Source: Pseudomonadota bacterium
Lineage (GTDB): Bacteria; Pseudomonadota; Gammaproteobacteria; Burkholderiales; Burkholderiaceae_C
Assembly (NCBI GenBank): GCA_018241895.1
Contig: JAFECX010000217.1
Location: 1-64,000, forward strand
DNA length: 64,000 nt
Direction: 5' to 3'
The position numbers were made by a program, and so were the translations under genes. Below are positions 17,969 through 52,898 of the stretch, one piece after another. The stretch's first letter is position 1. Every line of letters begins with the position of its first letter. Under the pieces are notes generated by a model. That model saw only the letters and a list, made by a program, of their open reading frames with translations, searched no databases and was not told where the DNA came from.

Positions 17969-18928
17969 CTACGCGCCGCCGTCCTCGCCCTCCATCGCCT
18001 TCTGGTGGCGGCGGATGAACTCCTGATAGGTGTCGATGCCGCGCAGCTGCAGCACGGTGTTGCGCACCGCGGCCTCGACGAGCACGGCCAGGTTGCGCCC
18101 CGCGTCGACCGCGATCACCACCTTGCGCACCGGGATCTCGAGCACGGACTCGTACAGCGGCTCGTAGGGCAGGCGCTCGAAATCGCGCTCCAGCGTCTCG
18201 GTGCGCACCAGGTGCACGATGAGCTGCAGCCTCATCTTCCGCCGCACCGCGGTCTCGCCGAAGATGGCCTTGATGTCGAGCAGCCCGATGCCGCGCACCT
18301 CGAGCAGGTTCTGCAGCAGCTCCGGACAGCGGCCCTCGAGCGCGGTCTGGCTGGTGCGGTAGATGTCGACCGCGTCGTCGGCCACCAGGCCGTGGCCGCG
18401 GCTGATGAGCTCGAGGCCGAGCTCGCTCTTGCCCAGGCCCGATTCGCCCGTGATCAGCACGCCCAGGCCGAGGATGTCCATGAACACGCCGTGGCGCGTC
18501 GTGCGGTCGGCGAACAGGCGGCCGAGGTAGCCGCGCACGACGTCGATCACGTGGCCGGCCGATTCGCGCGTGACGAACAGCGGAATCTCCGCGCGGTCGC
18601 ACATCGCGAGCAGCCGCGGCGGTGGCGTCTGGCCGTCGGCGACCACGATCATCGGCGGATCGAGCGCGACGATGCGCGAGATGCGCCGCTCCTGGTCTGC
18701 CGCTTCGTCGCGCGTCAGGTACTGGACCTCGCGCCGGCCGACCAGTTGCACCCGGTACGGGTGGATGTAGTTGAGGTAGCCGATCAGGTCGGCGGCCGAG
18801 CGTGCGTCGAGCACCGCCGCGTCGTCGAAGCGCCGCTCCGGGTGCGCGTGCCCGGCGACCCACTCCCAGTGCAGCGACTCGCGCTGCGCTTCGAACAGGG
18901 CCTCGGCGCTGATCGAGGTCGGTTTCAT
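17969..18928 (-). CDS. hprK: HPr kinase/phosphorylase
   Basis: Phosphorylates or dephosphorylates a serine on HPr; in betaproteobacteria it belongs to an incomplete, regulatory PTS. 319 aa. Walker [15 protein letters not shown] at about 158-171, [10 protein letters not shown] (catalytic aspartate region), the family signature [16 protein letters not shown] and a C-terminal [16 protein letters not shown]. Located downstream of ptsN and hpf on the same strand with a 124-base gap. Confidence 0.95.
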
Positions 18929-21065: not shown

Positions 21066-21103
21066 TACCCGGATGGGGTATGCGGCATCACCCTTCGCGG
21101 GCA
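21066..21103 (+). promoter_or_regulatory. TACCC-N5-GGGTA dyad pair ahead of tusA
   Basis: A perfect inverted repeat TACCC-GGATG-GGGTA (21066-21080) is followed at 23-base centre spacing by an imperfect one, CACCC-TTCGC-GGGCA (21089-21103). It sits 70-107 bases before the tusA start. The same arrangement occurs upstream of dsrA (29011-29049) and, in degenerate form, upstream of the qmo operon (59735-59774). The tusA and dsrA regions also share GTGCTGCGGC downstream. Proposed operator of a sulfur-oxidation regulon. Confidence 0.65.
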
Positions 21104-23223: not shown

Positions 23224-24366
23224 TCAGGCGCACACGGCGTCGGCGCGGTCCAGCAAGGCGGCCAGCGCGGCACCGGCCGTCGCGCCCTCGGCGCCGTGGC
23301 AGGCGAGCAGCCGCTGCACCAGGGCCTCGAAATGCGCCGTGCCGCGCGCGATGGCGTCGCGCATTGCGCGGCCGCCGTCGCCGCTGCCCTCGCCGCCGTG
23401 CCAGGCGCGATAGGCCTCGAGCAGGCGCGGGAAGGAGGCTTCGCGCAGGCCGTCGTAGGCCGCGAACCACGCGTGCAGCGACGCGTCGGCGCTGCCTGCC
23501 AGCAAGGCAGGCAGCGTGCTCGTCAGGTCGGCGAGCTGGTCGCGCACTGCAGCGGCCTGCAGGAGCGCGCGGCGCGTGGGCAGCGCGGCGCGCATCGCGG
23601 ACCAGGCGCCGCCCACGCGCCGGGCAATGCCGTGTTCGCCCAGTTCGTGCAGCAGCGCGACCTCGGTCTGGTCGGCCAGCCAGCGCGGCAGCGCCTGCTC
23701 GAATCCGCGCTCGAAGCCGTATGCGTGCACGACGGCGCCGAAGGCGCTCTCGGGCATCGGGCGCAGGCAGAACGCCTCGTAGCGCTCCCAGCCATACCTG
23801 GCCATCGACTCGCGACGCAGCACGATCGGGCCGTCGGCGGCCGACGCGAGCGCGGCCGGCGGCGCAGCCAGGCCGCGCGCGAGTTCGTGCCCGGCCTGCT
23901 GCACACGCAGGCCCGCGCGCGCGCCCAGCGCGTGCAGCTCGGCGACGAAGAACACCGGCCGCATCCCGCCGACGAGCCCCGCACCGTACAGCAGGCCGTG
24001 CGGCAGCAGCGCCGCGTTGACGGCCTCGGCGTCGAAGGCATCGATCGCGCGCACCGGCGCGGCGCGGCCCCGATCGCCTGCGGCAGGCACAGGCAGCGGC
24101 CGGTATTCCTGTGCCTCGCACGCCTGCCAGCGCGCCTCGCGCTCGCCGATCCAGGCGCCGAGCGCCTCACGCGGCAGCGTGGCACCGAAGGGCAGGCCGC
24201 GCTCCCAGCGGAAGAACTCGCGCATCTGCAGCAGGTAGTTGCACAGGCTGAGATCGCTCGCGTGGCGCGCGTCGGCGATGTCGCAGTTGTGCTGCACGGC
24301 GTCGACCAGCCGCGCGCGTGCCGCCGGGCTCAGGGGCGTGGTCGGGGCAGCCATCGCGTCGTCCAT
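23224..24366 (-). CDS. Conserved protein of unknown function, dsr-linked
   Basis: 380 aa, no signal peptide or membrane helix. The N-terminal string HNCDIADARHASDLSLCNYLLQMREFFRWE (around residues 28-57) with LPFGATLPREALGAWIGERE recalls a family I know only as Sfum_1244-like, named after a sulfate reducer; this is from memory and unverified. The C-terminal half is helical and Ala/Leu-rich. No catalytic motif is recognised. Last gene of the seven-gene operon divergent from dsrA. Start ATG 24366 or 24354. Confidence 0.75.
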   Translation of the reverse strand: MDDAMAAPTTPLSPAARARLVDAVQHNCDIADARHASDLSLCNYLLQMREFFRWERGLPFGATLPREALGAWIGEREARWQACEAQEYRPLPVPAAGDRGRAAPVRAIDAFDAEAVNAALLPHGLLYGAGLVGGMRPVFFVAELHALGARAGLRVQQAGHELARGLAAPPAALASAADGPIVLRRESMARYGWERYEAFCLRPMPESAFGAVVHAYGFERGFEQALPRWLADQTEVALLHELGEHGIARRVGGAWSAMRAALPTRRALLQAAAVRDQLADLTSTLPALLAGSADASLHAWFAAYDGLREASFPRLLEAYRAWHGGEGSGDGGRAMRDAIARGTAHFEALVQRLLACHGAEGATAGAALAALLDRADAVCA

Positions 24367-24448
24367 CCAGGCCGCGCGGTCCGGCCCGGGCGCGCGAGGC
24401 GGCCGAGGCGGCCGTGGGCATCGGTCGGGCACAAGCGCGGATCCATCG

Positions 24449-24848: not shown

Positions 24849-26324
24849 TCACGCCAGCTCCTGGCCCGTGATGCGCGCGGCGGGCACGCCGGCGGCGGCC
24901 AGCTCGGCGCGCAGCGTGCGCACGAAGGCCGCAGGCCCGGCGACGTAGAACGCGCAGTCGATGTCGAACAGGTCGGCGCGCATCGCCGCGGCCATCTGCG
25001 CGGCACCGGCGGCGGCGTCGTCGTGACCGAGCAGCGTGTACTCGAACGGATCGAGTGCCTCCGACCAGGCGCGGCACTGGTTGGCGAGGAAGTGGCCGTC
25101 GCTGCGCGTGGCGAGCCAGTACAGCGCGAGCGAGGGGGCGTCGTCGAGCGACAGCGCGTGCTCGATCAGGCTCTTGACGGGTGCGAAGCCCGTGTCGCAG
25201 GCGGCGAAGACCAGCGGCTGCGTCCCTTCGGCGAGCACGAAGCGGCCCAGCGGACCATGCACCGTGACCGTCTCGCCGGGCTTCACGCTGCCGCCGAACA
25301 GGCGCGCCGCGAAGGCGTCGCCGGCACGGCGCGGCACGAAGAAGTGCAGGTTGCGGTCGTCGCAGGGGCAGCTCGCGATCGGGTGCAGCGCCCGCGCCGG
25401 CGCGTCGCCGCCGAAGGCCAGCCGCACCGACTGCCCGGCGAGGAAGCGCAGACGCTGGCTGCGCGGCGTCTGCAGGTGCAGCAGCAGCGTGTCCGGCGCC
25501 AGCGCTCGCACGGCGCGCACGCTGGTCGCGATGGTCTGCAGCGGGATGTCCTCGGGGCTGCCCGCTTCGAGCGTCTCGAGCGTCAGTTCGCTGCTGGCCG
25601 CGGTGTGCGCACAGGCGAGCACGTAGCCCTGGGCCTTCTCGTTGTCCGACAGCGCGTAGTCGGTGTGCATCGTGCGCGCGACCTGGCCCGAGATCACGCG
25701 CACCTTGCACATGCCGCAGCTGCCGTTGCCGCAGCCGTAGTTGAGATTGAGTCCGGCGCGAATGCCCGCCGCCAGCAGCGTGTCGCGGCCCTCCACGGTG
25801 AACTGGTGGCCGCTCGGGCGCAGCGTGACCTGCGCCGCGACGGCTTCGAGCATGTCGTCCATCACGTCCAGCATGTCGACGGGTTCGGTGGCCAGTGCGC
25901 GCGCCAGCCCGTCGTTCAGCCGGCGCAGCACGTCCTCGTGGCGGGCATCGCCGAGGCCCGACCCGGCGGTGATCTCGCGCAGCCGCTCGCGCAGCTCGAT
26001 CACCAGGGCATGGTAGTGCTGCAGATGGCGCCGCACGTCGACGAGTTCCTGGCTCTGACGCAGCAGGCGCTGCCTCAGCACGTCGCGGCCGGGCAGGATG
26101 TCTTCGCGCAGGCGCCGTCCGAAGGCTTCGGCCCCGATCTGCGTCGGGCGCTCGAGCAGGGCCGATTCCTCGAGCCGGCATTGCGGGTACAGCCGGCGCA
26201 GCGCGTCGGTGGACACCAGGCCGTCGGCGGGCCCGAGCTCGCCGCGCGCCACGCGCTGCTGCAGCACGCCGTGCGGCACACCCACGAGCTGGGCGGCGCG
26301 CCGGATGGTGAGCCAGCGTGGCAT
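24849..26324 (-). CDS. HTH / coiled-coil / 2Fe-2S ferredoxin / FAD-NAD reductase fusion
   Basis: 491 aa multidomain protein. Residues 1-50: a MerR/excisionase-like helix-turn-helix (LTIRRAAQLVGVPHGVLQQRV). 65-160: charged helical, probably coiled-coil. 165-250: plant-type [2Fe-2S] ferredoxin with Cys198, Cys203, Cys206 and Cys238 (YGCGNGSCGMCKV, VLACAH). 260-491: ferredoxin-NADP-reductase-like FAD domain (RALHPIAS) and NAD domain (VFAACDTGFAPVKSLIEH). Likely an electron-transfer oxidoreductase feeding the adjacent oxygenase-like protein. The added HTH is unusual. Starts 5 bases after the TauD-like gene. Confidence 0.88.
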   Translation of the reverse strand: MPRWLTIRRAAQLVGVPHGVLQQRVARGELGPADGLVSTDALRRLYPQCRLEESALLERPTQIGAEAFGRRLREDILPGRDVLRQRLLRQSQELVDVRRHLQHYHALVIELRERLREITAGSGLGDARHEDVLRRLNDGLARALATEPVDMLDVMDDMLEAVAAQVTLRPSGHQFTVEGRDTLLAAGIRAGLNLNYGCGNGSCGMCKVRVISGQVARTMHTDYALSDNEKAQGYVLACAHTAASSELTLETLEAGSPEDIPLQTIATSVRAVRALAPDTLLLHLQTPRSQRLRFLAGQSVRLAFGGDAPARALHPIASCPCDDRNLHFFVPRRAGDAFAARLFGGSVKPGETVTVHGPLGRFVLAEGTQPLVFAACDTGFAPVKSLIEHALSLDDAPSLALYWLATRSDGHFLANQCRAWSEALDPFEYTLLGHDDAAAGAAQMAAAMRADLFDIDCAFYVAGPAAFVRTLRAELAAAGVPAARITGQELA

Positions 26325-26329
26325 GCGGA

Positions 26330-27331
26330 TCAGCCCGGCACGGCGCGCGGCGAGGCCGAAGCTGCCGTCGCCGAAGCCGTCGGCGCTGCCGTCGATCCCG
26401 CCACCCGGTCGAGGTAGCGCGCGCGGTACAGCAGCCGCGGCGCCGCCGGGTCGTCGGCGAACGCGCTGCGTTCGTGCAGCACGTTGTGGCACACCAGCCC
26501 CATCCCGGCGCCCAGGCGCAGGTGCAGCATCCACGACGCGGCCTCGCACCAGCGGCCGGCCAGCAGTTGCGCGAGCATGTCGACCGCGTTGCGCGTGGCG
26601 TCGTCGTCGCGCCAGGCGATGCTGCGCGTGCGTGCGGTGTAGCGCATGTGCAGCGCACCGTCGGCGTCGACCGAGAACACCGGCCCCGGCTGCGCGGCGC
26701 GCGCCACGCCCGCCTCGTCGACGCGCGCCGGGATCGTCATCGCGTCGGCGGCCATGAGCGCGCGCACCGCGTCGCGCAGCGCGATGTAGGCGAGCTCGTG
26801 GTCGAGCAGCCCGCTGCGGCCGCCGTGCGGCGCCGGGCGCACGCAGTGCAGGATCATGCCGCGGATCGAGCGCGCCTCGGGGTGGTAGTAGCCGTCGGTG
26901 TGCCAGCCGATGGCGTGGTCGGTGTAGGGGATGTAGTCGGCGCGGCCGCCGTCCGGCGCGCCGGCCTCGGTGTGGGCGCTGACGGCGATGCGCGAGATGC
27001 CGTCCTCGCCGGCCAGCCAGTTGGCGTCCAGCCGCACGAGGCCGAGCTGGGCGCCGAGCGCGCGCGGCAGCGTCGGGTCCTCGCCCGTGGCCGGCACGTG
27101 GTACAGCGCCATGTTCGTGCGCGTGAGGCGCGCGAGCAGGGCGGCCCGCTCGGCGGCGTCGAGCGCGTGGGCGTCGCGCAGCCCGACCAGCAGGTCGTCG
27201 ACGCCGCGCGCGCGCTCGTCGAGCTTGCGTTCGCGCCACAGGCGATACGCGCGCTCGTCGTCGAGGTCGAACGGGCTGCCGGCATCGGCGGCGGCGGCGG
27301 CGCTGGCGCGTTCGTCGATGGGGGCCGACAT
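26330..27331 (-). CDS. TauD/CsiD-like Fe(II)/2-oxoglutarate dioxygenase
   Basis: 333 aa cupin-fold oxygenase. Probable iron ligands His144 and Asp146 (IGWHTDGYYHP) and a distal His286 (CHNVLHERSAF), followed by YRARYLDR, which may bind the 2-oxoglutarate carboxylate. The family splits sulfonates such as taurine to sulfite, or hydroxylates other acids; substrate unknown. Four bases after the upstream gene and five before the reductase, so clearly operonic. The tail after residue ~310 is low complexity. Confidence 0.85.
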   Translation of the reverse strand: MSAPIDERASAAAAADAGSPFDLDDERAYRLWRERKLDERARGVDDLLVGLRDAHALDAAERAALLARLTRTNMALYHVPATGEDPTLPRALGAQLGLVRLDANWLAGEDGISRIAVSAHTEAGAPDGGRADYIPYTDHAIGWHTDGYYHPEARSIRGMILHCVRPAPHGGRSGLLDHELAYIALRDAVRALMAADAMTIPARVDEAGVARAAQPGPVFSVDADGALHMRYTARTRSIAWRDDDATRNAVDMLAQLLAGRWCEAASWMLHLRLGAGMGLVCHNVLHERSAFADDPAAPRLLYRARYLDRVAGSTAAPTASATAASASPRAVPG

Positions 27332-27335
27332 CGCC

Positions 27336-27986
27336 TCACTCCCCGGTCTGCGCGGCGCGGCGCGCGCGTCGCGGCGACGGGTCGAACAATTCGCGCATCG
27401 AGCGCTGCACCTGGGCCACCGCCTCGGGCGCCTCGACGGCCATCACCTGGTCGAGCACCCAGCGCCGCTCGTCTTCGGGCACCGTCGGCGCGAGCCGCGT
27501 GCCGAGGTAGCGCACGAAGGCGAAGTCGGGGTGGAACACATCGCTGCCGGGCGGCGGCTGGGGATCGGCGCCGAACTCGGCGTAGTGCTGCACGATCTCG
27601 TTGACGAGATCGACGAAGGCGTCGCCGTGGCTCGGGGCGCCGGCAGGCGCGGCGCCGAGCAACTCGTCCTCGTTGTCGGCCAGCGTGCGCGCGACGTGCC
27701 TGACCAGCGCGACGGTGAACTCCGCGCGCGCCTCGGGGGCGAGCCGCCCGTGCGCGATGCGATCGGCGAGCGCGATCAGGAATACCAGCACCTCGCGCAT
27801 GAAGTCGAAGTACGGTCGCCCGGCATCGATCGCGAAATCGGCGCCGCGCATGCGCTCGAGCATCCGGCGCGCCAGGCGCCAGACGATGAAGGCCATCGCG
27901 CTCGCCTGCTCGGCGGCGCTCTTGTCCTTCGCATCGCGGAACCAGCGGTTCTTGATGCGGATGGCGCTCGGCGTCGGACGGCTCAC
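27336..27986 (-). CDS. Uncharacterised helical protein, dsr-linked operon
   Basis: 216 aa, not recognised. Opens with a basic segment (IRIKNRWFRDAKDKSAAEQ), then a predicted helix MAFIVWRLARRMLERM and a hydrophobic FDFMREVLVFLIALADRI that may be buried or membrane-near, then DAFVDLVNEIVQHYAEFG, DVFHPDFAFVRYLG and an Arg-rich end. Start GTG 27986 is the only good start ahead of the conserved-looking part. Four-base gap to the TauD-like gene. Confidence 0.7.
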   Translation of the reverse strand: MSRPTPSAIRIKNRWFRDAKDKSAAEQASAMAFIVWRLARRMLERMRGADFAIDAGRPYFDFMREVLVFLIALADRIAHGRLAPEARAEFTVALVRHVARTLADNEDELLGAAPAGAPSHGDAFVDLVNEIVQHYAEFGADPQPPPGSDVFHPDFAFVRYLGTRLAPTVPEDERRWVLDQVMAVEAPEAVAQVQRSMRELFDPSPRRARRAAQTGE

Positions 27987-28060: not shown

Positions 28061-28696
28061 TCACGGCGCTGCGCCGACGGGCGCCGCCGACTTGTGCGGG
28101 ACGAACACGCCGCAGCCGAGCTGGCGGTGTGCGCCCACGCCCTGCTCCTGCAGACGCAGCGCGTCGGCCGGCGCGAGGCCGTCGAGCATCAGGCTGTAGC
28201 CGGCGAGCGTGCCGCACTCGAGCACCTGACGACGCCCGCAGACGATGCGTGCGCGCACGCCGAGTGCGCTCAGCTGCGCGTCGACCCAGCCCAGGAACGC
28301 CAGTTCGTCGTCGGCCTCGAAGGCCACGAGGTGCGCGTACTGCGTGGCCAGCGGCAGCAGCTCGCGGCAGCGCGGATGGTGCAGGCGCAGCGGCAGTCCG
28401 TCGAGTTCGAGCGTGACGCCGTCCAGCGCCTGGGCCAGCGCGACGTGCTCGCGCCGCAGCCGCAGCATGAGCCGCGTGCGCTGCGACAGATGCGCCACTG
28501 CCTCCTCGCCCGGGGGCAGCTTCAGGCCGTGCACGCCGGCACCTGGCGCCGCTGCCAGCCAGGGCAGCGCACGCTGCAGCGCCGCGGCAAGCGCGTGCCG
28601 GTGGTCGCGTGCGAGCGTGCGGCCGTCGGCGTCGAAAGCCAGGTCGAGCATCGCCGACGTGGCGCTGCCCTCGCTCGTGCCGGCTCCCGAAGGCAT
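28061..28696 (-). CDS. Orphan Cas6 (Cmx6-like, RAMP fold) protein
   Basis: 211 aa. Architecture of the Cas6 subfamily from type I-MYXAN CRISPR systems: N-terminal MLDLAFDADGRTLARDHRHAL, the mid-protein SQRTRLMLRL strand, a second ferredoxin-like half, and a C-terminal G-rich loop GVGAHRQLGCGVFVPHK (about 186-202) preceded by YSLMLDGLAPADALRLQE. His32/His34 are candidates for the cleavage histidine. Cas6 enzymes cut CRISPR transcripts; no array or other cas gene is present here. It lies in the operon divergent from dsrA. ATG 28651 is an alternative start. Confidence 0.8.
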   Translation of the reverse strand: MPSGAGTSEGSATSAMLDLAFDADGRTLARDHRHALAAALQRALPWLAAAPGAGVHGLKLPPGEEAVAHLSQRTRLMLRLRREHVALAQALDGVTLELDGLPLRLHHPRCRELLPLATQYAHLVAFEADDELAFLGWVDAQLSALGVRARIVCGRRQVLECGTLAGYSLMLDGLAPADALRLQEQGVGAHRQLGCGVFVPHKSAAPVGAAP

Positions 28697-28708: not shown

Positions 28709-28924
28709 TCAGCCCCGCGGCTGCCGCTCGGCCCACTCGAGCAGCGCGCGTGCCCAGGCTTCGGCGGTGACCGGGTCGATGTCGAACACGGTGTAGCGAC
28801 TCCTCTCGCGGATGCGCGTGCGCACCAGTGGCAGCGCGGCGTCGTCGTGGTCGACCTGCTGCAACTCGATCTCCTGGCCGCCCAGCGGCGAACGGATCTT
28901 GAACAGGGGCGTGAGGCTGGGCAT
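28709..28924 (-). CDS. Small protein of unknown function, first gene of accessory operon
   Basis: 71 aa, not recognised. Sequence features: MPSLTPLFKIRSPLGG, a beta-rich middle (EIELQQVDHDD, PLVRTRIRERSRYTVFDID) and a C-terminal helix (AEAWARALLEWAERQ). Acidic, cytoplasmic. Ends 12 bases before the Cas6-like start. Upstream is the 277-base divergent region shared with dsrA; the operator-like dyads lie ~90 bases before this start. Confidence 0.65.
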   Translation of the reverse strand: MPSLTPLFKIRSPLGGQEIELQQVDHDDAALPLVRTRIRERSRYTVFDIDPVTAEAWARALLEWAERQPRG

Positions 28925-29010: not shown

Positions 29011-29049
29011 TACCCGGTTCGGGTGGGGCCCGGATACGCCTTCTGGGTA
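29011..29049. promoter_or_regulatory. Operator-like dyad pair between dsrA and divergent accessory operon
   Basis: TACCC-GGTTC-GGGTG (29011-29025) and TACGC-CTTCT-GGGTA (29035-29049), centres 24 bases apart: the same half-sites and 5-base spacer as the tusA-upstream pair. They lie 153-191 bases before dsrA and ~90-125 before the minus-strand operon, so one regulator could control both. GTGCTGCGGC follows, as at tusA. The remaining 28925-29201 shows no gene. Confidence 0.65.
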
Positions 29050-29201
29050 GTGCTGCGGCACGCCCTGCGGTCTATCGTGCGCTACCCATGGCGGGAATAG
29101 CCGCCGCCGTGTCGTGCGGCGACCATTCGCGCCTCGTCACGGGTTCACGGGACCGGATGCCGCCCGCCCGAGCGGCCCGGCCGATGCAGGAGACACGCCG
29201 C

Positions 29202-30503
29202 ATGGCCAAGAAGATGCACCCGACGCCGATCCTCGACCAGCTCGAGGGCGGCCCCTGGCCCAGCTTCATCACCGGCTTGAAGCGCCTGGCCGAGGACAAG
29301 GACTACGTCGTCGACCTGCTCGGCACGCTCGAGAGCAGCTACCGCAACAAGAAGGGCTACTGGAAGGGCGGCACGGTCGGCGTCTACGGCTATGGCGGCG
29401 GCGTCATCCCGCGCTTCACCGAGCTCAAGAACGACGACGGCACGCCGGTGTTCCCCGACGCGGCCGAACTGCACACGCTGCGCATCCAGCCACCGCCGGG
29501 CATGCACTACACGACCGACGTGCTGCGCAAGATGTGCGACATCTGGGAGCGCCACGGCACCGGCCTCATCGCCTTTCACGGTCAGAGCGGCGACATCATG
29601 TTCCAGGGCGCCAAGACCGAGGGCGTGCAGGCCGCGTTCGACGAGCTCAACGAGCTCGGCTTCGACCTCGGCGGCGCCGGCCCCGCGGTGCGCACCAGCA
29701 TGAGTTGCGTCGGCGCCGCGCGCTGCGAGCAGAGCTGCTTCGACGAGGCGCGCGCGCACCGCACGGTGATCAACACCTTCACCGACGACATCCACCGGCC
29801 GGCGCTGCCGTACAAGTTCAAGTTCAAGTTCAGCGGCTGCGCCAACGACTGCATGAACTCGATCCAGCGCGCCGACATGGCCGTCATCGGCACCTGGCGC
29901 GACAACATGCGCGCCGACGAGGGGCTGGCGCGCAAGTGGTTCGCCAAGCACGGCATGAACGAGCTCGTGAACAACGTCGTCACGCGCTGCCCGACCAAGG
30001 CGATCATGTTGAAGGAGGTCAAGGAGCTGCGCAGCGACGCGCACCTGACGACGCTCAAGGTCAGCGACACGCATGCGCTCGAGATCGACAACAAGGACTG
30101 CGTGCGCTGCATGCACTGCATCAACGTCATGACCGGCGCGCTGGCGCACGGCAGCGACACCGGCGCGACGATCCTGATCGGCGGCAAGCGCACGCTCAAG
30201 ATCGGCGACCTGATGGGCACCGTGATCGTGCCGTTCATGCCGCTGAAGACCGACGAGGACTTCGCGGCCCTGGTCGACCTGGGCAAGCGCGCGATCGACT
30301 TCTTCGCCGACAACGCGCTCGAGCACGAGCGCACCGGCGAGATGATCGAGCGCATCGGCCTCGTGAACTTCCTCGACGGCATCGGCATCGAGGCCGACCC
30401 GCACATGGTCGCCACCCCGCGCACCAACCCCTACGTGCGCATGGACGGCTGGGACGACGAAGTGGCCAAGATCAACGCGCGCAAGCAGGCCGACGCCGCC
30501 TGA
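29202..30503 (+). CDS. dsrA: Reverse dissimilatory sulfite reductase alpha subunit
   Basis: With DsrB forms the siroheme enzyme that, in sulfur oxidisers, oxidises DsrC-bound or sulfidic sulfur to sulfite. 433 aa. Siroheme-[4Fe-4S] cysteines Cys169/175 (MSCVGAARCEQSC) and Cys213/217 (SGCANDCMN); inserted ferredoxin domain with Cys263, 300, 303 and 306 (CVRCMHC). ATG 29202 has an AGGAG site nine bases before. First gene of the dsr operon. Direction (oxidative) is inferred from dsrEFH, dsrL and the apr/qmo context. Confidence 0.97.
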   Translation: MAKKMHPTPILDQLEGGPWPSFITGLKRLAEDKDYVVDLLGTLESSYRNKKGYWKGGTVGVYGYGGGVIPRFTELKNDDGTPVFPDAAELHTLRIQPPPGMHYTTDVLRKMCDIWERHGTGLIAFHGQSGDIMFQGAKTEGVQAAFDELNELGFDLGGAGPAVRTSMSCVGAARCEQSCFDEARAHRTVINTFTDDIHRPALPYKFKFKFSGCANDCMNSIQRADMAVIGTWRDNMRADEGLARKWFAKHGMNELVNNVVTRCPTKAIMLKEVKELRSDAHLTTLKVSDTHALEIDNKDCVRCMHCINVMTGALAHGSDTGATILIGGKRTLKIGDLMGTVIVPFMPLKTDEDFAALVDLGKRAIDFFADNALEHERTGEMIERIGLVNFLDGIGIEADPHMVATPRTNPYVRMDGWDDEVAKINARKQADAA

Positions 30504-31623: not shown

Positions 31624-31984
31624 ATGAAATTCGCGCTGATGGTCAGCGAAGGTCCGTACACCCACCAGGCCGCCGACACGGCGTGGAATTTCGCCGCTGC
31701 GGCGATCCGCCGCGGCCACGAGGTGATGCGCGTCTTCTTCTATCACGATGGCGTCTACAACGCGAGCCGGCTCACCGAGCCGCCGCAGGACGACCGCCAC
31801 ATCGTCAACCGCTGGAGCCGGCTGAATCAGGAGCACGGCGTCGACCTCGTCGTCTGCGTCGCGGCCGCGCTGCGCCGTGGCATCAAGGACGAGGTGCTGG
31901 CGCCGGGCTTTCGCATCAGCGGCCTCGGGCAACTGGTCGACGCCGGCATCAAGGCCGACCGCACCGTGACCTTCGGCGGCTTAG
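31624..31984 (+). CDS. dsrE: DsrE sulfurtransferase subunit, in-frame stop lost
   Basis: Subunit of the DsrE2F2H2 hexamer that passes sulfane sulfur to DsrC. Conserved through 119 residues, including active Cys78 in LVVCVAAALRRGI, and ending RTVTFGG as DsrE normally does. At the expected end the sequence reads GGC GGC TTA GGG: one extra T (31981/31982) removes the TAG stop. Read literally, the frame continues through dsrF, dsrH and dsrC to 33129 as unrelated sequence. The interval given ends at the out-of-frame TAG (31982-31984). A sequencing indel or a genuine frameshift are both possible. Confidence 0.85.
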
Positions 31985-31993
31985 GGGCGGGCG

Positions 31994-32350
31994 ATGAAGA
32001 AGTTCATGTTCGTCAACCGCAAGCCGCCGTACGGCACGATCCACGCCCTCGAAAGCCTCGAGGTCGTGCTGATCGCCGCCACCTTCGACCAGGACGTGAG
32101 CCTGGTGTTCCTCGACGACGGCGTGTACGAGCTCGTCAAGGGCCAGGACACCAAGGCCACCGGCATCAAGAACCACAGCAAGACCTACCGCGCACTCGAG
32201 GGCTACGACGTCGAGAAGCTGTACGTCGAGCGCGAGTCGATGGCCGCACGCGGCCTCGGCGAGGACGACCTGATCGTCGACGTCACGGTGCTGTCCACGG
32301 CCGAGCTGGCCGACCTCATGGCGTCGCAGGACGTCGTGCTCTCGTTCTGA
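31994..32350 (+). CDS. dsrF: DsrF, DsrEFH complex subunit
   Basis: 118 aa, DsrE/F fold: MKKFMFVNRKPPYGTIHALE, VVLIAATFDQDVSLVFLDDGVYELVKGQD, LIVDVTVLS. No cysteine is present, in line with a structural role beside DsrE Cys78 and DsrH Cys18. Its ATG lies 10 bases past the displaced dsrE stop. Its sequence is intact, so the dsrE indel affects only dsrE. Confidence 0.95.
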   Translation: MKKFMFVNRKPPYGTIHALESLEVVLIAATFDQDVSLVFLDDGVYELVKGQDTKATGIKNHSKTYRALEGYDVEKLYVERESMAARGLGEDDLIVDVTVLSTAELADLMASQDVVLSF

Positions 32351-32362
32351 GGTCCGCCGGCC

Positions 32363-32662
32363 ATGCTGCACATCGTCAACAAGTCGCACTACCAGAGCGG
32401 CGCGCTCGCGAGCTGCCTGCGTCTGGCCCGGCCCGGGCACGCGTTGCTGCTGACCGAGGATGGCGTGCTCGCCGCCGCCAAGGCCAGCGCCGCCGCCTCG
32501 GGCGTGGCGGCGGTGCTGGCCACGCTGAAGGTCTACGTGCTGCAGCCCGACGTCGAGGCGCGTGGCCTCGCCGGCCGGCTGATCGAGGGCGTCGGCGCGG
32601 TAGGCTACGAGGGCTTCGTCGACCTCGTCGCCGAGCAGCCCACCAACCAATCCTGGATCTGA
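32363..32662 (+). CDS. dsrH: DsrH (TusB-like), DsrEFH complex subunit
   Basis: 99 aa. MLHIVNKSHYQSGALASCLRL places the conserved cysteine at position 18; GHALLLTEDGVLAA and VYVLQPDVEARGL follow the TusB/DsrH pattern, and the end YEGFVDLVAE is typical. Twelve bases after dsrF, 21 before dsrC. Confidence 0.94.
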   Translation: MLHIVNKSHYQSGALASCLRLARPGHALLLTEDGVLAAAKASAAASGVAAVLATLKVYVLQPDVEARGLAGRLIEGVGAVGYEGFVDLVAEQPTNQSWI

Positions 32663-32683
32663 CCACCAGAGGAGAGAGCCATC

Positions 32684-33016
32684 ATGCCCATCGAAGTGAA
32701 CGGCACCAGCATCGAGACCGACGAGGAAGGCTATCTCGTCAACCTCTCCGACTGGAGCGAGGACGTGGCCAAGGAGATCGCCAAGGCCGAGAACGTCGAC
32801 ATGAGCGACAACCACTGGGAGGTGGTCAACTTCCTGCGCCAGTACTACGACGAATACCAGATCGCGCCCGCCGTGCGCGTGCTGACCAAGGCCATCGGCA
32901 AGCAGCTCGGCGAGGACAAGGGCAACAGCAAGTACCTGTACGAGCTGTTCCCCTACGGCCCCGCCAAGCAGGCCTGCAAGATCGCCGGCCTCCCGAAGCC
33001 CACCGGCTGCGTCTGA
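32684..33016 (+). CDS. dsrC: DsrC sulfur carrier with both redox cysteines
   Basis: Substrate-donating protein of the Dsr system: it accepts sulfur from DsrEFH, presents it to DsrAB, and cycles a trisulfide/disulfide read by DsrMKJOP. 110 aa. Carries both functional cysteines on its C-terminal arm, Cys98 and penultimate Cys109 (QACKIAGLPKPTGCV), plus the HTH-like core HWEVVNFLRQYYDEYQ. A GGAGAG site precedes ATG 32684. Two further family members without these cysteines lie at 41120 and 52527. Confidence 0.97.
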   Translation: MPIEVNGTSIETDEEGYLVNLSDWSEDVAKEIAKAENVDMSDNHWEVVNFLRQYYDEYQIAPAVRVLTKAIGKQLGEDKGNSKYLYELFPYGPAKQACKIAGLPKPTGCV

Positions 33017-33053
33017 AGGCGGCCGGCGCGGCGCCCCGCAGCACGCGACGGCC

Positions 33054-33785
33054 ATGTCGGCGCTCGCGCTCGGCTACGCCTTGCTCTTCTACGCCGCCAC
33101 GCTCGTGCTGGTGGTGGGGCTGGCGCTGAAGATCCGCGGCTATCTGCGCACGCCGGCGCCGCTGCTGATCCCGACCACGCCGGCGCCGACGAAGGTCGGC
33201 GGAGTCGTGCTGCGCATGACGCGCGAAGTGGTGTTCTTCGAGAGCCTGTTCAAGGGCAGCAAGTGGACCTGGGGCTTGGGCTGGCTGTTCCACGCATCGC
33301 TCGCGCTCGTGCTGCTGCGCCACCTGCGCTACTTCCAGCAGCCGGTGTGGGGCCCCGTCGTCTTCGTGCAGTTCTTCGGCACCTATGCCGGGCTGACGAT
33401 GGTGGCCGGACTCGCCGGGCTGTGGGCGCGGCGCCTGCTCGTCGACCGCGTGCGCTACATCTCGACGCCCTCCGACCACCTGCACCTGGCGCTGCTCGTC
33501 GCCATCGGCATCTCGGGACTGACGATGCGCTTCGTCGCGCACACCGACATCGTCGCGCTCAAGGCCTTCATGCTCGGCCTCACGCGCCTGTCGATCCAGC
33601 CGCTGCCGGCCGATCCGCTGCTGCTCGTGCACCTGACGCTGGTGGCGGTGCTGATGATCGTGTTCCCGATCAGCAAGCTGCTGCACGCGCCGGGCCTGTT
33701 CTTCAGCCCGACGCGCTACCAGGTCGACAACCCGCGCGAGGCGCGCCACCAGGCGGCCTGGGCCGCGGCGCTCGATCGCCAATAG
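33054..33785 (+). CDS. dsrM: DsrM, membrane cytochrome b subunit
   Basis: NarI-like diheme cytochrome b of the DsrMKJOP complex, linking quinone to DsrK. 243 aa with five to six hydrophobic helices (about 3-26, 75-92, 98-120, 138-160, 185-205). Candidate heme histidines in LFHASLALVLLRHLRY and LLVHLTLVAVLM. ATG 33054 lies 37 bases after dsrC. Confidence 0.94.
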   Translation: MSALALGYALLFYAATLVLVVGLALKIRGYLRTPAPLLIPTTPAPTKVGGVVLRMTREVVFFESLFKGSKWTWGLGWLFHASLALVLLRHLRYFQQPVWGPVVFVQFFGTYAGLTMVAGLAGLWARRLLVDRVRYISTPSDHLHLALLVAIGISGLTMRFVAHTDIVALKAFMLGLTRLSIQPLPADPLLLVHLTLVAVLMIVFPISKLLHAPGLFFSPTRYQVDNPREARHQAAWAAALDRQ

Positions 33786-33818
33786 GCGCGCCGCGGCCGC
33801 CGACCGAGACACGCCGCC

Positions 33819-35354
33819 ATGGCCACCGCCGCCAAGTTCCAGACGCCCCGGCTCGAGCCGTACCCGGTGATCCCGCTGGTCGCCGATGGCGCGATGGCGC
33901 ACAGCAAGCCCTTCGTCGCCAACGCCAAGATGCAGCAGGCGCTGGGCTTCCCGGGCGAACTGGTCGAGGGCTGGGAGCAGCGCGCCATCTCGAGGATGGG
34001 CGAACTGCTCGACCGGTACCGCAGCCTGCGCGTGTACATGGACGCCTGCGTGCACTGCGGCGCCTGCAGCGACAAGTGCCACTACTACCTGGGCAGCGGC
34101 GACCCGAAGAACATGCCGGTGGCGCGCCAGGACCTGATGCGCGGCGTGTACCGGCGCTACTTCACCTTCGCCGGCAGGCATTTCCCGAAGCTGGTCGGCG
34201 CGACCGACTTCACGAAGGATCTGCTCGACCAGTGGTGGAGCTACTACAACCAGTGCAGCGAGTGCCGCCGCTGCAGCGTGTTCTGCCCCTACGGCATCGA
34301 CACCGCCGAGGTCACGATGGCCGCGCGCGAGATCATGGACAGCGTGGGCCTCGGGCAGAAGTACGCCAACGAGATCATCGGCAAGGTGCACCGCATCGGC
34401 AACAACCTCGGCATCCCCGAGCCGGCGCTCGCCGACACGCTGGCCGGCCTCGAGGAGGACACCAAGGACGAGACCGGCGTCGACGTGCGCTTCCCGCTCG
34501 ACGTCCAGGGCGCCGAGGTGCTGCTGATCACGCCCAGCGCCGACTTCTTCAGCGAGCCGCACGTCGACAGCCTGATCGGCTACGCCAAGGTCTTCCACGC
34601 CGCGGGCGTCAGCTGGACGCTGTCGAGCAAGGCCAGCGAGGCCGCCAACTTCGGCATGTTCATCGGCAGCTACGAGCAGATGCGCAAGGTCGCGCTGCGC
34701 GTGCGCGAGGCCGCGCTCGAGCTCGGCGCCAGGCGCATCGTCGTCGGCGAGTGCGGCCACGCCTGGCGCGTGGCCTACAGCTTCTGGAACACGCTGGTGG
34801 GCATCGGCGCCGGCGCCGAGGATCCGTTCGCGCGCGCGCTGCAGAGCCAGCTCGACGGCCGCTACAAGCAGCCGATGCACATCTGCGAGTTCACGCACGA
34901 GCTCATCGGGCGCGGCGCGCTGCGCTTCGACAAGGAGAAGAACGACGCGCGCATCGTCACCTTCCACGACTCGTGCAACGTGGCGCGCGCCTCGCGCATG
35001 GGTGACGTGCCGGGCGGCCAGTTCACGATCCCGCGCGACATCATCCGCGCCGTCGCCAACCACTTCCACGACATGCCGGCGGGCACGACGCACGAGGCGA
35101 CGTTCTGCTGCGGCGGCGGCGGCGGGCTGCTCACCGACGACCTGCTCGAGCTGCGCGTCAAGGGCGCGCTGCCGCGCATGGAGGCGCTGAAGAACGTCGT
35201 CGACGCGCACGGCGTCAACTTCATGGCCACCATCTGCGCCATCTGCAAGGCGCAGTTCTCCAAGGTGCTGCCGTACTACGGCTTCGACATGGGCATGGTG
35301 GGCGGCGTCCACCAGCTCGTGAGCAAGGCCATCCGCCTCGGCGAGGCGCATTGA
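33819..35354 (+). CDS. dsrK: DsrK, HdrD-like iron-sulfur protein
   Basis: Cytoplasmic catalytic subunit of DsrMKJOP, thought to act on the DsrC disulfide/trisulfide. 511 aa. Two [4Fe-4S] sites: CVHCGACSDKC (~77-87) and CSECRRCSVFC (~147-157). CCG-domain motifs in the C-terminal half for a noncubane cluster: HDSCNVARAS, FCCGGGGGLL and ATICAICKAQ. No membrane helix. DsrL starts 20 bases later. Confidence 0.95.
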   Translation: MATAAKFQTPRLEPYPVIPLVADGAMAHSKPFVANAKMQQALGFPGELVEGWEQRAISRMGELLDRYRSLRVYMDACVHCGACSDKCHYYLGSGDPKNMPVARQDLMRGVYRRYFTFAGRHFPKLVGATDFTKDLLDQWWSYYNQCSECRRCSVFCPYGIDTAEVTMAAREIMDSVGLGQKYANEIIGKVHRIGNNLGIPEPALADTLAGLEEDTKDETGVDVRFPLDVQGAEVLLITPSADFFSEPHVDSLIGYAKVFHAAGVSWTLSSKASEAANFGMFIGSYEQMRKVALRVREAALELGARRIVVGECGHAWRVAYSFWNTLVGIGAGAEDPFARALQSQLDGRYKQPMHICEFTHELIGRGALRFDKEKNDARIVTFHDSCNVARASRMGDVPGGQFTIPRDIIRAVANHFHDMPAGTTHEATFCCGGGGGLLTDDLLELRVKGALPRMEALKNVVDAHGVNFMATICAICKAQFSKVLPYYGFDMGMVGGVHQLVSKAIRLGEAH

Positions 35355-35374
35355 TTTCCAGCGAGGGCCCAGCG

Positions 35375-37354
35375 ATGTCCACCCCCACCGAGAGCAGCGA
35401 GACCAGGGCACTGAACTTCCGCCGCTTCAAGGACGGCGACCACCAGGTCAAGCGCTGGGTCGAGCAGATCTTCGACGCCGACCACTCGCACAAGTGCCCG
35501 ACCTACATCCAGAGCGCGCCGCCGTGCCAGGCGTCGTGCCCTTCGGGCGAGGACATCCGCGGCTACCTCAACATCGCGCGCGGCATCGAGAAGCCGCCGG
35601 CGGGCACGAAGTGGCAGGAGTACGCGTGGCGCCGCCTCACCGAGGCCAACCCGTTCCCGAGCGTGATGGGCCGCGTGTGCCCGGCGCCGTGCGAGTCGGG
35701 CTGCAACCGCAACCAGGTCGACGACTTCGTCGGCATCAACTCGGTCGAGCACTTCCTCGGCGACTGGGCCAACGCCAACCAGATGGCCTACCGCAGGCCC
35801 GAGGCGCGCAGCGGCAAGACGGTGGCGGTGATCGGCGGCGGGCCGGCAGGGCTGTCGGCGGCCTACCAGCTCGCGCTCAAGGGCCACGACGTCACGATCT
35901 TCGACGAGCGCGCCGAGCTCGGCGGCATGATGCGCTACGGCATCCCGGGCTTTCGCACGCCGCGCGACGTGCTCGACCAGGAGATCCAGCGCATCCTCGA
36001 CCTGGGCGTCGCGACACGCCTGAACACGCGCATCGGCCGCGACATCACGCTCGAGCAGATCCGCGCGCAGTTCGACGCGGTGTTCCTCGGCCTGGGCGCG
36101 CAGAGCGGCCGGCCGCTGCCGGTGCCCGACAGCGAGGCGCCCAACGTCGTCACCGCCACCGCATTCCTGAAGGCCTTCAACGACGGCCGCCTGCGCCACG
36201 TCGGCAAGCGCGTGGTGGTGGTCGGCGGCGGCGACACGTCGATCGACGTCGCGAGCGTGGCGCGGCGCCTGGGCCACATCGACCAGGCGCACGAGGCCGA
36301 CCTGCCCGAGAACGCGATCGGCGCGCTGGCCGGCTTCGCTGCACACGAATCGGCGCTGGTGTCCAGGCGCCAGGGCGCCGAGGTCACGCTGACCTCGGTG
36401 TTCGCGATCGAGAAGATGCAGGCCAGCCGGCACGAGGTCGAGCATGCGCTGGCCGAAGGCATCGCGATCCGCGGCGGCATGGCGCCGGTGGCGGTGGTGC
36501 GCGACGCGAGCGGCCGCGCCACCGCGCTGCGCGTGGCGCGCTGCGAGGCCAAGCTGGCCGGCGGCAGGCTCGAGATCAAGATGATCCCGGGCAGCGAGGA
36601 GGACATCGAGGCCGACCTGATCGTCTCGGCGGTCGGCCAGGCGGTGGACTTCACGGGGCTGGAGGCGCTGAACAACGGTCGCGGCGCGGTCGCCGCGGAC
36701 AAGAACTACCAGGTGCAGATCGGCGGCCAGGCGCAGGCCGACGTCTTCTGCGGCGGCGACGTGATCCGCCCGCACCTGCTCACCACCGCGATCGGGCACG
36801 GCTCGATCGCCGCCGACGGCATCGACCGCTTCCTGCGCGGCGAGGCGCAGGGCAAGCGCCCCAAGGTCGACGTGCACAGCTTCGACCTGATGCGCAAGAT
36901 GGTCGAGAAGGGCTTGCCGATCGGCCATATCGACGCGCCGACCTGGGGCACCGACCGCTCCGCCGGCGCCGTGCACAACTTCGACAACCGCTCCGACCGC
37001 TACGTCATCCCGCACAAGGATCTGTTCCTCGGTCACTTCCCCTACACGCCGCGCCTGCGGCGACAGGTGACGACGCTCACGGCCGAGGAGGCGCTGAACA
37101 ACTTCGAGGAACGCCTGCTGCCGCTGCTCGAGGCGCAGGCGCAGGCCGAGGCCAAGCGCTGCATGAGCTGCGGCCTGTGCTTCGAATGCGACAACTGCGT
37201 CGTCTACTGTCCGCAGAAGGCGGTCTTCAAGGTGAAGAAGTCGCAATCGACGATGGGACGCTACGTCGACACCGACTACGCCAGGTGCATCGGCTGCCAC
37301 ATCTGCAAGGACGTGTGCCCCACCGGCTACATCCAGATGGGGCTCGGGGAGTAG
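35375..37354 (+). CDS. dsrL: DsrL, NAD(P)H:acceptor oxidoreductase
   Basis: Flavoprotein essential for rDsr-based sulfur oxidation, accepting electrons from DsrAB and reducing NAD(P)+. 659 aa, close to Allochromatium DsrL. N-terminal Fe-S region (CQASCPSGEDI, CPAPCESGCNRN), FAD site VIGGGPAGLSAAYQ at ~145, NAD(P) site VVVVGGGDTSIDVA at ~285, and a C-terminal ferredoxin with CMSCGLCFECDNCVVYC and CIGCHICKDVC. ATG 35375 preferred over TTG 35351, which overlaps dsrK. Confidence 0.95.
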   Translation: MSTPTESSETRALNFRRFKDGDHQVKRWVEQIFDADHSHKCPTYIQSAPPCQASCPSGEDIRGYLNIARGIEKPPAGTKWQEYAWRRLTEANPFPSVMGRVCPAPCESGCNRNQVDDFVGINSVEHFLGDWANANQMAYRRPEARSGKTVAVIGGGPAGLSAAYQLALKGHDVTIFDERAELGGMMRYGIPGFRTPRDVLDQEIQRILDLGVATRLNTRIGRDITLEQIRAQFDAVFLGLGAQSGRPLPVPDSEAPNVVTATAFLKAFNDGRLRHVGKRVVVVGGGDTSIDVASVARRLGHIDQAHEADLPENAIGALAGFAAHESALVSRRQGAEVTLTSVFAIEKMQASRHEVEHALAEGIAIRGGMAPVAVVRDASGRATALRVARCEAKLAGGRLEIKMIPGSEEDIEADLIVSAVGQAVDFTGLEALNNGRGAVAADKNYQVQIGGQAQADVFCGGDVIRPHLLTTAIGHGSIAADGIDRFLRGEAQGKRPKVDVHSFDLMRKMVEKGLPIGHIDAPTWGTDRSAGAVHNFDNRSDRYVIPHKDLFLGHFPYTPRLRRQVTTLTAEEALNNFEERLLPLLEAQAQAEAKRCMSCGLCFECDNCVVYCPQKAVFKVKKSQSTMGRYVDTDYARCIGCHICKDVCPTGYIQMGLGE

Positions 37355-37358
37355 CTGC

Positions 37359-37751
37359 GTGCGGCGTGCCCGGCTCGTCGTGGTGGCAGGGGTGCTGCTG
37401 GCGCTCGGCGGCGCCGGCGTCGCGCTGGCCGCGGGCGCACTGGCGCCGACGATCGAGCGCGCCGTCAGGGGCGAGCGCTGCGTCGAGGACAACGCGACGA
37501 TGCGGCGCGACCACATGCGCTTTCTCAGGCACCAGCGCGACGCGACCGTGCACCAGGGCATCCGCGGCGCCAAGTACAGCCTGAAGGGCTGCATCGACTG
37601 CCACGCCAGCGCCAGGACCGGCAGCGTGGCCGCGGCGCCGGGCGACTTCTGCGTCGCCTGCCACAGCTACGCGGCGGTGCAGATCGACTGCTTCGAATGC
37701 CACGCCTCGAAGCCGGCGGCCGCCCTCGCTGCCAACGGGGCCAAGCCATGA
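37359..37751 (+). CDS. dsrJ: DsrJ, periplasmic triheme cytochrome c
   Basis: 130 aa with an uncleaved-type N-terminal signal anchor (~6-28). Three heme c motifs: CIDCH, CVACH and CFECH. A lone upstream cysteine in GERCVEDNA fits the unusual His/Cys heme ligand described for DsrJ. Start is GTG 37359, four bases after the dsrL stop. Part of DsrMKJOP. Confidence 0.94.
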   Translation: MRRARLVVVAGVLLALGGAGVALAAGALAPTIERAVRGERCVEDNATMRRDHMRFLRHQRDATVHQGIRGAKYSLKGCIDCHASARTGSVAAAPGDFCVACHSYAAVQIDCFECHASKPAAALAANGAKP

Positions 37752-41119: not shown

Positions 41120-41476
41120 ATGTCATCACCGAAGTCCGTGCGCACCGTGATGGTCGAAGGGCGTCCGATCGCCACCGACAAGGAGGGCTACCTGGTCGAC
41201 CTGCACGATTGGTCCGAGGCCTTCGCGACGGCGCTGGCGCACGAAGAGGGGCTCGAGCTCACGCCGGCGCACTGGGAGGTGCTGCGCTTCCTGCGCAACC
41301 ACTGGCACGAGCACGGCGTGCAGCCGCAGGTGCGCGTGATGATCCGCCACTTCGGCAAGGTCTGGGGCCCCGAGCGCGCCAGCAACCACGCGCTGCACGA
41401 GTTGTTCCCGATCGGCGGGCCGCAGAAGCAGGGCAACCGCCTCGCCGGCCTGCTGCGCACGAAGGGCGAGCACTGA
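41120..41476 (+). CDS. DsrC-family paralogue lacking both cysteines (RspA-type)
   Basis: 118 aa. The DsrC/TusE core is intact ([48 protein letters not shown]), but the C-terminal arm reads [14 protein letters not shown]: the CysB position is Asn and the penultimate CysA position is Glu. It has no cysteine at all and so cannot carry sulfur by the known mechanism. Cysteine-less DsrC homologues are called RspA and thought regulatory. Between dsrN and dsrR. Confidence 0.9.
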
Positions 41477-52526: not shown

Positions 52527-52898
52527 ATGATCGCCGAACGACAAGCTGTCCACCCGAGCACCGTGCCCGCGGCGCCCGCGCTCGCGCGCCCGCTGGCGCC
52601 CATTGCCTTCGACGACGAGGGCTTCCTCGTCGATCCCTCGGCCTGGACGACCGTGCTGGCCTGTCAGATCGCGCTCGTCGAGGGCGTGAGCGCGCTGACA
52701 CCCAAGCACTGGCAGGTGATCGACATCGTGCGCGAGCGCTACTTCCGGCTCGGCGCGCTGCCGGTCATGCGCCTCGTGTGCCGCGCGGCGGGCGTCGACC
52801 CGCACGACGCGCACCGACTGTTCCGCAGTTGCTGCAGCCTGTGGCGCATCGCCGGCCTGCCCGATCCGGGCCCCGAGGCGCGGGCCTACATGAACTGA
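52527..52898 (+). CDS. Third DsrC/TusE-family protein, C-terminal cysteines missing
   Basis: 123 aa. DsrC-like core: DDEGFLVDPSAWTTVLACQIALVEG, LTPKHWQVIDIVRERYFRLG, LPVMRLVCRAAG. The C-terminal arm is SCCSLWRIAGLPDPGPEARAYMN: the CysB position is Trp106 and the penultimate residue is Met, so neither DsrC cysteine remains, though Cys102/Cys103 lie nearby. Perhaps regulatory, or using the CC pair. Opposite the rhodanese. Confidence 0.85.
   Translation: MIAERQAVHPSTVPAAPALARPLAPIAFDDEGFLVDPSAWTTVLACQIALVEGVSALTPKHWQVIDIVRERYFRLGALPVMRLVCRAAGVDPHDAHRLFRSCCSLWRIAGLPDPGPEARAYMN

Follow-up and report, generated by a model that had tools for sequence, protein, structure and literature searches.

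Cas6 proteins normally cut CRISPR RNA. The window analysed here (the whole stretch of DNA, 64,000 nucleotides) holds a gene that an earlier note, made from the letters alone, read as an orphan Cas6-like endonuclease, and the question raised by the locus is what such a protein does beside the genes of the dsr sulfur-oxidation pathway, which has been dissected for decades. The features concerned are:

23224..24432 (-), DUF6866 protein (PF21739 and PF21740), gene start probably inside the ORF
24849..26324 (-), 2Fe-2S ferredoxin and FAD/NAD reductase (Fer2, FAD_binding_6, NAD_binding_1), start approximate
26330..27331 (-), TauD/TfdA-family Fe(II)/2-oxoglutarate dioxygenase-like protein (PF02668, E=1.6e-14)
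27336..27986 (-), orf222, conserved all-helical protein without a Pfam family, kept beside cas6
28061..28696 (-), dsr-linked Cas6 (PF09559), 211 aa, by the PF09559, TIGR02807 and PADLOC Cas6 profiles and AlphaFold2 fold
28709..28924 (-), DUF6967 small protein (PF22295, E=3.1e-25), directly upstream of cas6
29011..29025 (no strand), palindrome TACCCGGTTCGGGTG, putative DNA operator in the divergent intergenic region, from conservation in a genus-level alignment
29088..30503 (+), dsrA (NIR_SIR domains), divergent from the cas6 group, true start near 29203
31624..37751 (+), dsrE, F, H, C, M, K, L and J, from ORFs and Pfam, of the oxidative type (dsrEFH and dsrL)

The product of 28061-28696 was searched against three profile libraries and its structure was predicted, as the earlier note had proposed, and both approaches gave Cas6. 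PF09559 matched over the full length (E=7.5e-52, 176.5 bits, cut-off 26.7), TIGR02807 (cas6_cmx6) scored 132.2 bits over a curated cut-off of 98.85, and the PADLOC Cas6 profile matched with E=7.6e-52. The conserved portion of the ORF begins at Met16 (28651). An AlphaFold2 model built from 27 dsr-linked homologs (mean pLDDT 92.9) retrieved Cas6/Cse3 structures or Cascade Cas6 chains as its top 38 PDB fold matches, with 8fcj_B, the Cas6 of a type I-B CAST Cascade, as the best (TM 0.80). That same protein (PDB 8fcj/8fcu chain B) was the sole PDB sequence match (E=6.6e-32), although it differs in being part of an RNA-guided transposon Cascade, in having Asn at the His position and in sharing only 26% identity. 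By profile and by its tandem ferredoxin-like (RAMP) fold the product is a genuine Cas6-family member, and the G-rich loop and histidine of the family (PF09559/TIGR02807) are present as well. Misassembly or a chance ORF was ruled out, because the gene recurs at the equivalent site in 21 other related loci and in other orders. A search of genome contigs with a single sequence as query returned one locus, from Gallionella (L029), and an alignment query would serve better; in the viral contigs searched, no relative was confirmed.

Read in the order DUF6967, cas6, orf222, TauD-like protein, ferredoxin/flavin reductase and DUF6866, the minus-strand group diverges from an oxidative-type operon, dsrA-B-E-F-H-C-M-K-L-J. 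The identity of dsrA was confirmed with TIGR02064 (498.9 bits at 29232-30482). The dsrE frame has no stop at TFGG, where it should end (about 31984), and reads on, which looks like one extra base or an assembly error. Synteny of the ferredoxin/reductase gene is limited to close relatives of the window, and the DUF6866 gene lies near cas6 in many loci. For orf222, which had no family hit, a confident AlphaFold2 model (pLDDT 90.4) gave no PDB match below E 0.39.

The distribution of the gene was followed in 100 relatives, in a phylum-wide sample of 399 genomes and in genomes drawn from the various families of the class, which here and below is the class of the source genome. Among the relatives, PF09559 was carried by all 26 dsrA-positive genomes (25 above the TIGR02064 cut-off, and G073, whose dsrA hit is split) and was missing from 73 of the 74 dsrA-negative ones (Fisher p=4e-23); in the one dsrA-negative genome (G020) among the 27 carriers, cas6 lies 201 bases from a contig end. 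The phylum-wide sample held five carriers, all dsrA-positive; none of its 346 dsrA-negative genomes and none of its 48 dsrA-positive genomes from outside the class had PF09559. In the class sample the family was found in 109 of 116 other dsrA-positive genomes (77/80 and 32/36), and in 96/99 of those of good quality (completeness at least 90%, contamination at most 5%). In the three good-quality genomes without it, the contig breaks off 150, 657 and 1880 bases from dsrA, on the flank that should hold cas6. Sensitive HMM searches for a hidden Cas6 in the stretches taken from these three genomes and from rDsr loci outside the class found none (best E 0.035).

Linkage was equally regular. In 58 of the 77 first-batch carriers cas6 lies less than 10 kb from dsrA, always divergent (58/58) and with gaps of 0.66-4.5 kb; one of the others has cas6 41 kb from dsrA and 18 have it on another contig. 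L122, with its cas6 41 kb from dsrA, was the only inspected neighbourhood without dsr neighbours. The arrangement of the window recurs in each of the first 21 other loci examined, a Gallionella MAG included, and cas6 is divergent from dsrA in 19/20 loci from other orders of the class, usually with TauD between the two and a DsrC paralog after. Five genomes of 1.0-1.1 Mb (G525, G623, G731, G761 and G823) all retain the gene. One cas6 copy is present in nearly every sampled dsrA-positive genome of the class, usually facing dsrA, so the tie between an orphan Cas6 and the dsr neighbourhood proposed by the earlier note is strongly backed by profile, fold, tree (below) and class-wide co-occurrence. 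High-scoring dsrA-positive genomes from outside the class gave no PF09559 hit, although the four that were examined hold the complete dsrEFHCMKL set; oxidative Dsr as such can therefore do without Cas6, a point against the reading preferred below.

The distribution also bears on a CRISPR role. Within the window no repeat array and no other cas gene were found near cas6, as the earlier note had reported. The genome does carry a CRISPR-Cas locus, on another contig (C231 of G000):

37-451 and 1064-9015 of L050, type I-C-like CRISPR-Cas locus, array and cas genes

The array, with repeat GTTTCAATCCGCGCGCGCCCCGTGAGGGGCGCGCGAC, was found by searching the region beside the single Cas1 gene of the genome; the gene order was read as cas1, cas4, cas7, cas8c, cas5d and cas3, and a profile match confirmed Cas1 alone. 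Type I-C systems have no Cas6, and their crRNA is processed by Cas5d. The earlier note had held that a Cas6-less CRISPR-cas locus elsewhere in the genome would count against its reading. Such a locus is formally there, yet it does not refute that reading, because type I-C uses Cas5d and because cas6 follows dsrA rather than CRISPR. Cas1 was absent from 38/77 first-batch carriers of the class sample and from 15/27 carriers among the relatives, and the gene does travel with dsr in CRISPR-free genomes, as the note had suggested looking for. Service in trans to CRISPR systems that have no Cas6, such as the type I-C locus of the same genome with its array, would agree with the profile identity of the protein; it is set against the carriers without Cas1, the near-strict co-occurrence with dsrA instead, the reliance of type I-C on Cas5d and a clade separate from the CRISPR Cmx6 proteins compared. 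We rejected it on co-occurrence and regard it as largely refuted, with hardly any probability left. Linkage to cas genes or an array, regular co-occurrence with Cas1 and grouping with the seven cyanobacterial Cmx6 proteins compared, the marks of a CRISPR Cas6, were not found for this protein.

The genes that accompany cas6 were then compared across loci. A DUF6967 gene lies upstream of cas6 in 21/21 of the non-window loci first examined, and in genome G079 (L038, 8228-9106, minus strand) the two are fused in frame into a protein of 292 aa, with a GTG start just upstream, PF22295 at residues 1-63 and PF09559 at 92-284. The fusion points to a physical partnership. A DsrC paralog of the DsrC/TusE family (PF04358) adjoins cas6 in 38/41 loci; it ends in GGY in 38/38 cases, whereas the DsrC of the operon ends in TGC[VI], and three of the 38 still have a Cys at the upstream position. 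No such paralog directly follows cas6 in the window or in L037, unlike in most of the loci first examined. Two more DsrC-like genes without the terminal Cys motif are present in the window (41120-41476 and 52527-52898), and neither ends in GGY.

In most loci of other orders the TauD gene is the one nearest to dsrA. Four rDsr-type loci from outside the class have TauD (4/4) and mostly a detectable DUF6967 (3/4), and have neither Cas6 nor a DsrC paralog beside dsr. Because TauD and DUF6967 occur there without it, Cas6 seems to have joined a TauD-DUF6967 pair that already existed. Divergent from dsrA, three rDsr loci from outside the class (L124-L126) share the order TauD, a small ORF, a DUF6967-like gene and a gene for a protein similar to the siroheme synthase CysG, and L123 has the first three; the small ORF of L124-L126 (about 70-90 aa) is conserved and unnamed.

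DsrEFH and DsrC are homologous to TusBCD and TusE. Sulfur-linked tRNA handling, in which a TusE/DsrC-like protein and an RNA-binding protein would act as a pair as in 2-thiouridine synthesis, would draw on that homology and on the RNA-binding fold encoded next to a DsrC-like gene (38/41 loci), but the adjacent paralog is without the sulfur-carrying C-terminal Cys in 38/38 cases, and we consider this explanation quite improbable.

For the tree and alignment, 70 dsr-linked Cas6 sequences were combined with seven cyanobacterial CRISPR Cmx6 sequences. The dsr-linked proteins form one clade, apart from the seven Cmx6 proteins, with support of 100/100 for each group. Within it the other orders of the source class form a supported branch (99/98), which fits an early recruitment followed mainly by vertical inheritance. 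Both groups keep the G-rich loop that the earlier note had pointed out (GVGAHRQLGCGVFVP in the window protein), and share a core of H32, R79 and the loop GxGxxRxxGCGxFxP, each of the four glycines of GxGxxRxxGCGxF being present in 69-70 of the 70 dsr-linked sequences. Of the two candidate histidines named in that note, H32 is conserved (66/70 dsr-linked, 6/6 CRISPR Cmx6 covering the site; Tyr in 4/70) and H34 is not. Other residues are particular to the dsr-linked proteins: R73 (70/70), E131 (69/70, where 7/7 CRISPR Cmx6 have Pro), G154 (69/70) and H201-K202 (K202 in 66/70).

Among the closest known systems is type I-MYXAN, whose Cas6/Cmx6 (TIGR02807, PF09559; for example on plasmids of Gloeothece, Nostoc and Synechocystis, L054-L060) shares the profile family, the conserved His, R79 and the loop. 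The Cmx6 genes stand in cas3-cas8/cmx8-cas7-cas5 operons and the dsr-linked genes by dsrA; the dsr-linked proteins further differ in their own clade, E131, R73, G154 and a PHK(S) tail. With TIGR02807 the CRISPR Cmx6 proteins reach higher bit scores (141-255) than the tested dsr-linked proteins (117-153), and all are above the equivalog cut-off. It is because they pass this cut-off that the name Cas6/Cmx6 is misapplied to the dsr-linked proteins.

Cas6 proteins use the histidine, R79 and the G-rich loop to bind and cut RNA. The persistence of these features as the common conserved core stands against a protein that kept the Cas6 fold and gave up action on RNA, as an assembly, scaffold or sensor protein of Dsr together with DUF6967 and the DsrC paralog. 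That role would account for the new dsr-only residues (R73, E131, G154 and K202), for the replacement of His by Tyr in one clade and for partners that are mostly redox or unknown proteins; we judge it unlikely, while giving it serious weight. The Cas6 proteins of L018, L024, L016 and L029 form one clade, and in the alignments L018, L024 and L029 have Tyr in place of the conserved His; this Tyr-bearing clade, which contains Gallionella, offers a natural test of the need for catalysis. Since His is replaced in 4/70 dsr-linked proteins, catalysis may be dispensable. Catalytically dead Cas6 proteins stay bound to their RNA, and binding without cleavage, for example in autoregulation of the divergent operon or on an sRNA, would suit both the persistence of the loop where Tyr occupies the catalytic place and the neighbouring DsrC paralog without a terminal Cys motif. 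Retention of His in 66/70 speaks against it, and we think it improbable.

An RNA target was sought near the gene and none was found, which counts against the RNA-processing reading preferred below. An Rfam search of window positions 20000-42000 gave only matches below the gathering score, and the dsrA/DUF6967 intergenic region yielded nothing beyond DNA-like palindromes. ACCC-N-GGGT palindromes are conserved in this divergent region, and one form recurs upstream of dsrE2-yeeE; the palindrome of 29011-29025 has 6 near-matches in the window against 0.41 expected. The form TACCCG-N3-CGGGTA occurs at 29011-29025 (dsrA/DUF6967 intergenic region), at 21066-21080 (between a GST gene and dsrE2-yeeE) and at 18749-18763, and is possibly the operator of a sulfur regulator. 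These intergenic elements look like DNA operators because, judged by eye, there is no covariation between their arms. For A. vinosum growing on sulfide, transcript levels of dsrEFH and dsrC are reported to exceed that of dsrA (PMC3397948, citing Grimm 2010), although part of this difference is also explained by a separate dsrC promoter (PMC3368242). The uneven levels are compatible with transcript processing; internal promoters fit them as well.

The reading that we prefer is that the oxidative Dsr pathway recruited a PF09559/Cmx6-type Cas6 a single time, early in the class. The dsr-linked Cas6 would act as an RNA-binding protein, probably an endoribonuclease: the histidine and G-rich loop, kept across the whole range, argue for RNA binding and probably for cleavage. 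It may recognise a structured non-CRISPR RNA, as the earlier note had suggested for the window protein. A transcript related to dsr would be the most likely one and is the nearest candidate, because cas6 sits with dsrA and follows no CRISPR system. It would work together with DUF6967 and the DsrC paralog without a terminal Cys motif. Recruitment for RNA binding and processing in the control of Dsr has, in our estimate, slightly less than an even chance of being right. More speculatively, the domesticated Cas6 could be a core post-transcriptional Dsr factor that cuts or holds a dsr-related RNA and is itself controlled by the DsrC paralog, a proposal that we put forward only tentatively.

An open-access literature search returned no report of a dsr-linked Cas6, and absence there is not proof of novelty. 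The published genome of Thiodictyon syntrophicum fits the dsr-linked pattern: just past its dsr cluster (THSYN_22480-22545) there is a DsrC-like gene, THSYN_22565, and cas6 was noted as absent from the I-C locus (PMC5944118). What is new about the dsr-linked Cas6 is its non-CRISPR setting, the family being a known one, and a gene found in almost every dsrA-positive genome of the class appears to be undescribed as part of the Dsr pathway. The library label 'CRISPR-associated Cas6/Cmx6' misleads CRISPR surveys and sulfur genomics alike. A distribution that follows dsrA suggests that this sulfur energy pathway includes an RNA-binding or RNA-cutting component not yet described. Should the protein prove to act on RNA, it would clearly exemplify a Cas6 at work in core energy metabolism, and if the domesticated Cas6 is what we propose, it would amount to a Cas6 ribonuclease system outside CRISPR, conserved throughout a bacterial class.
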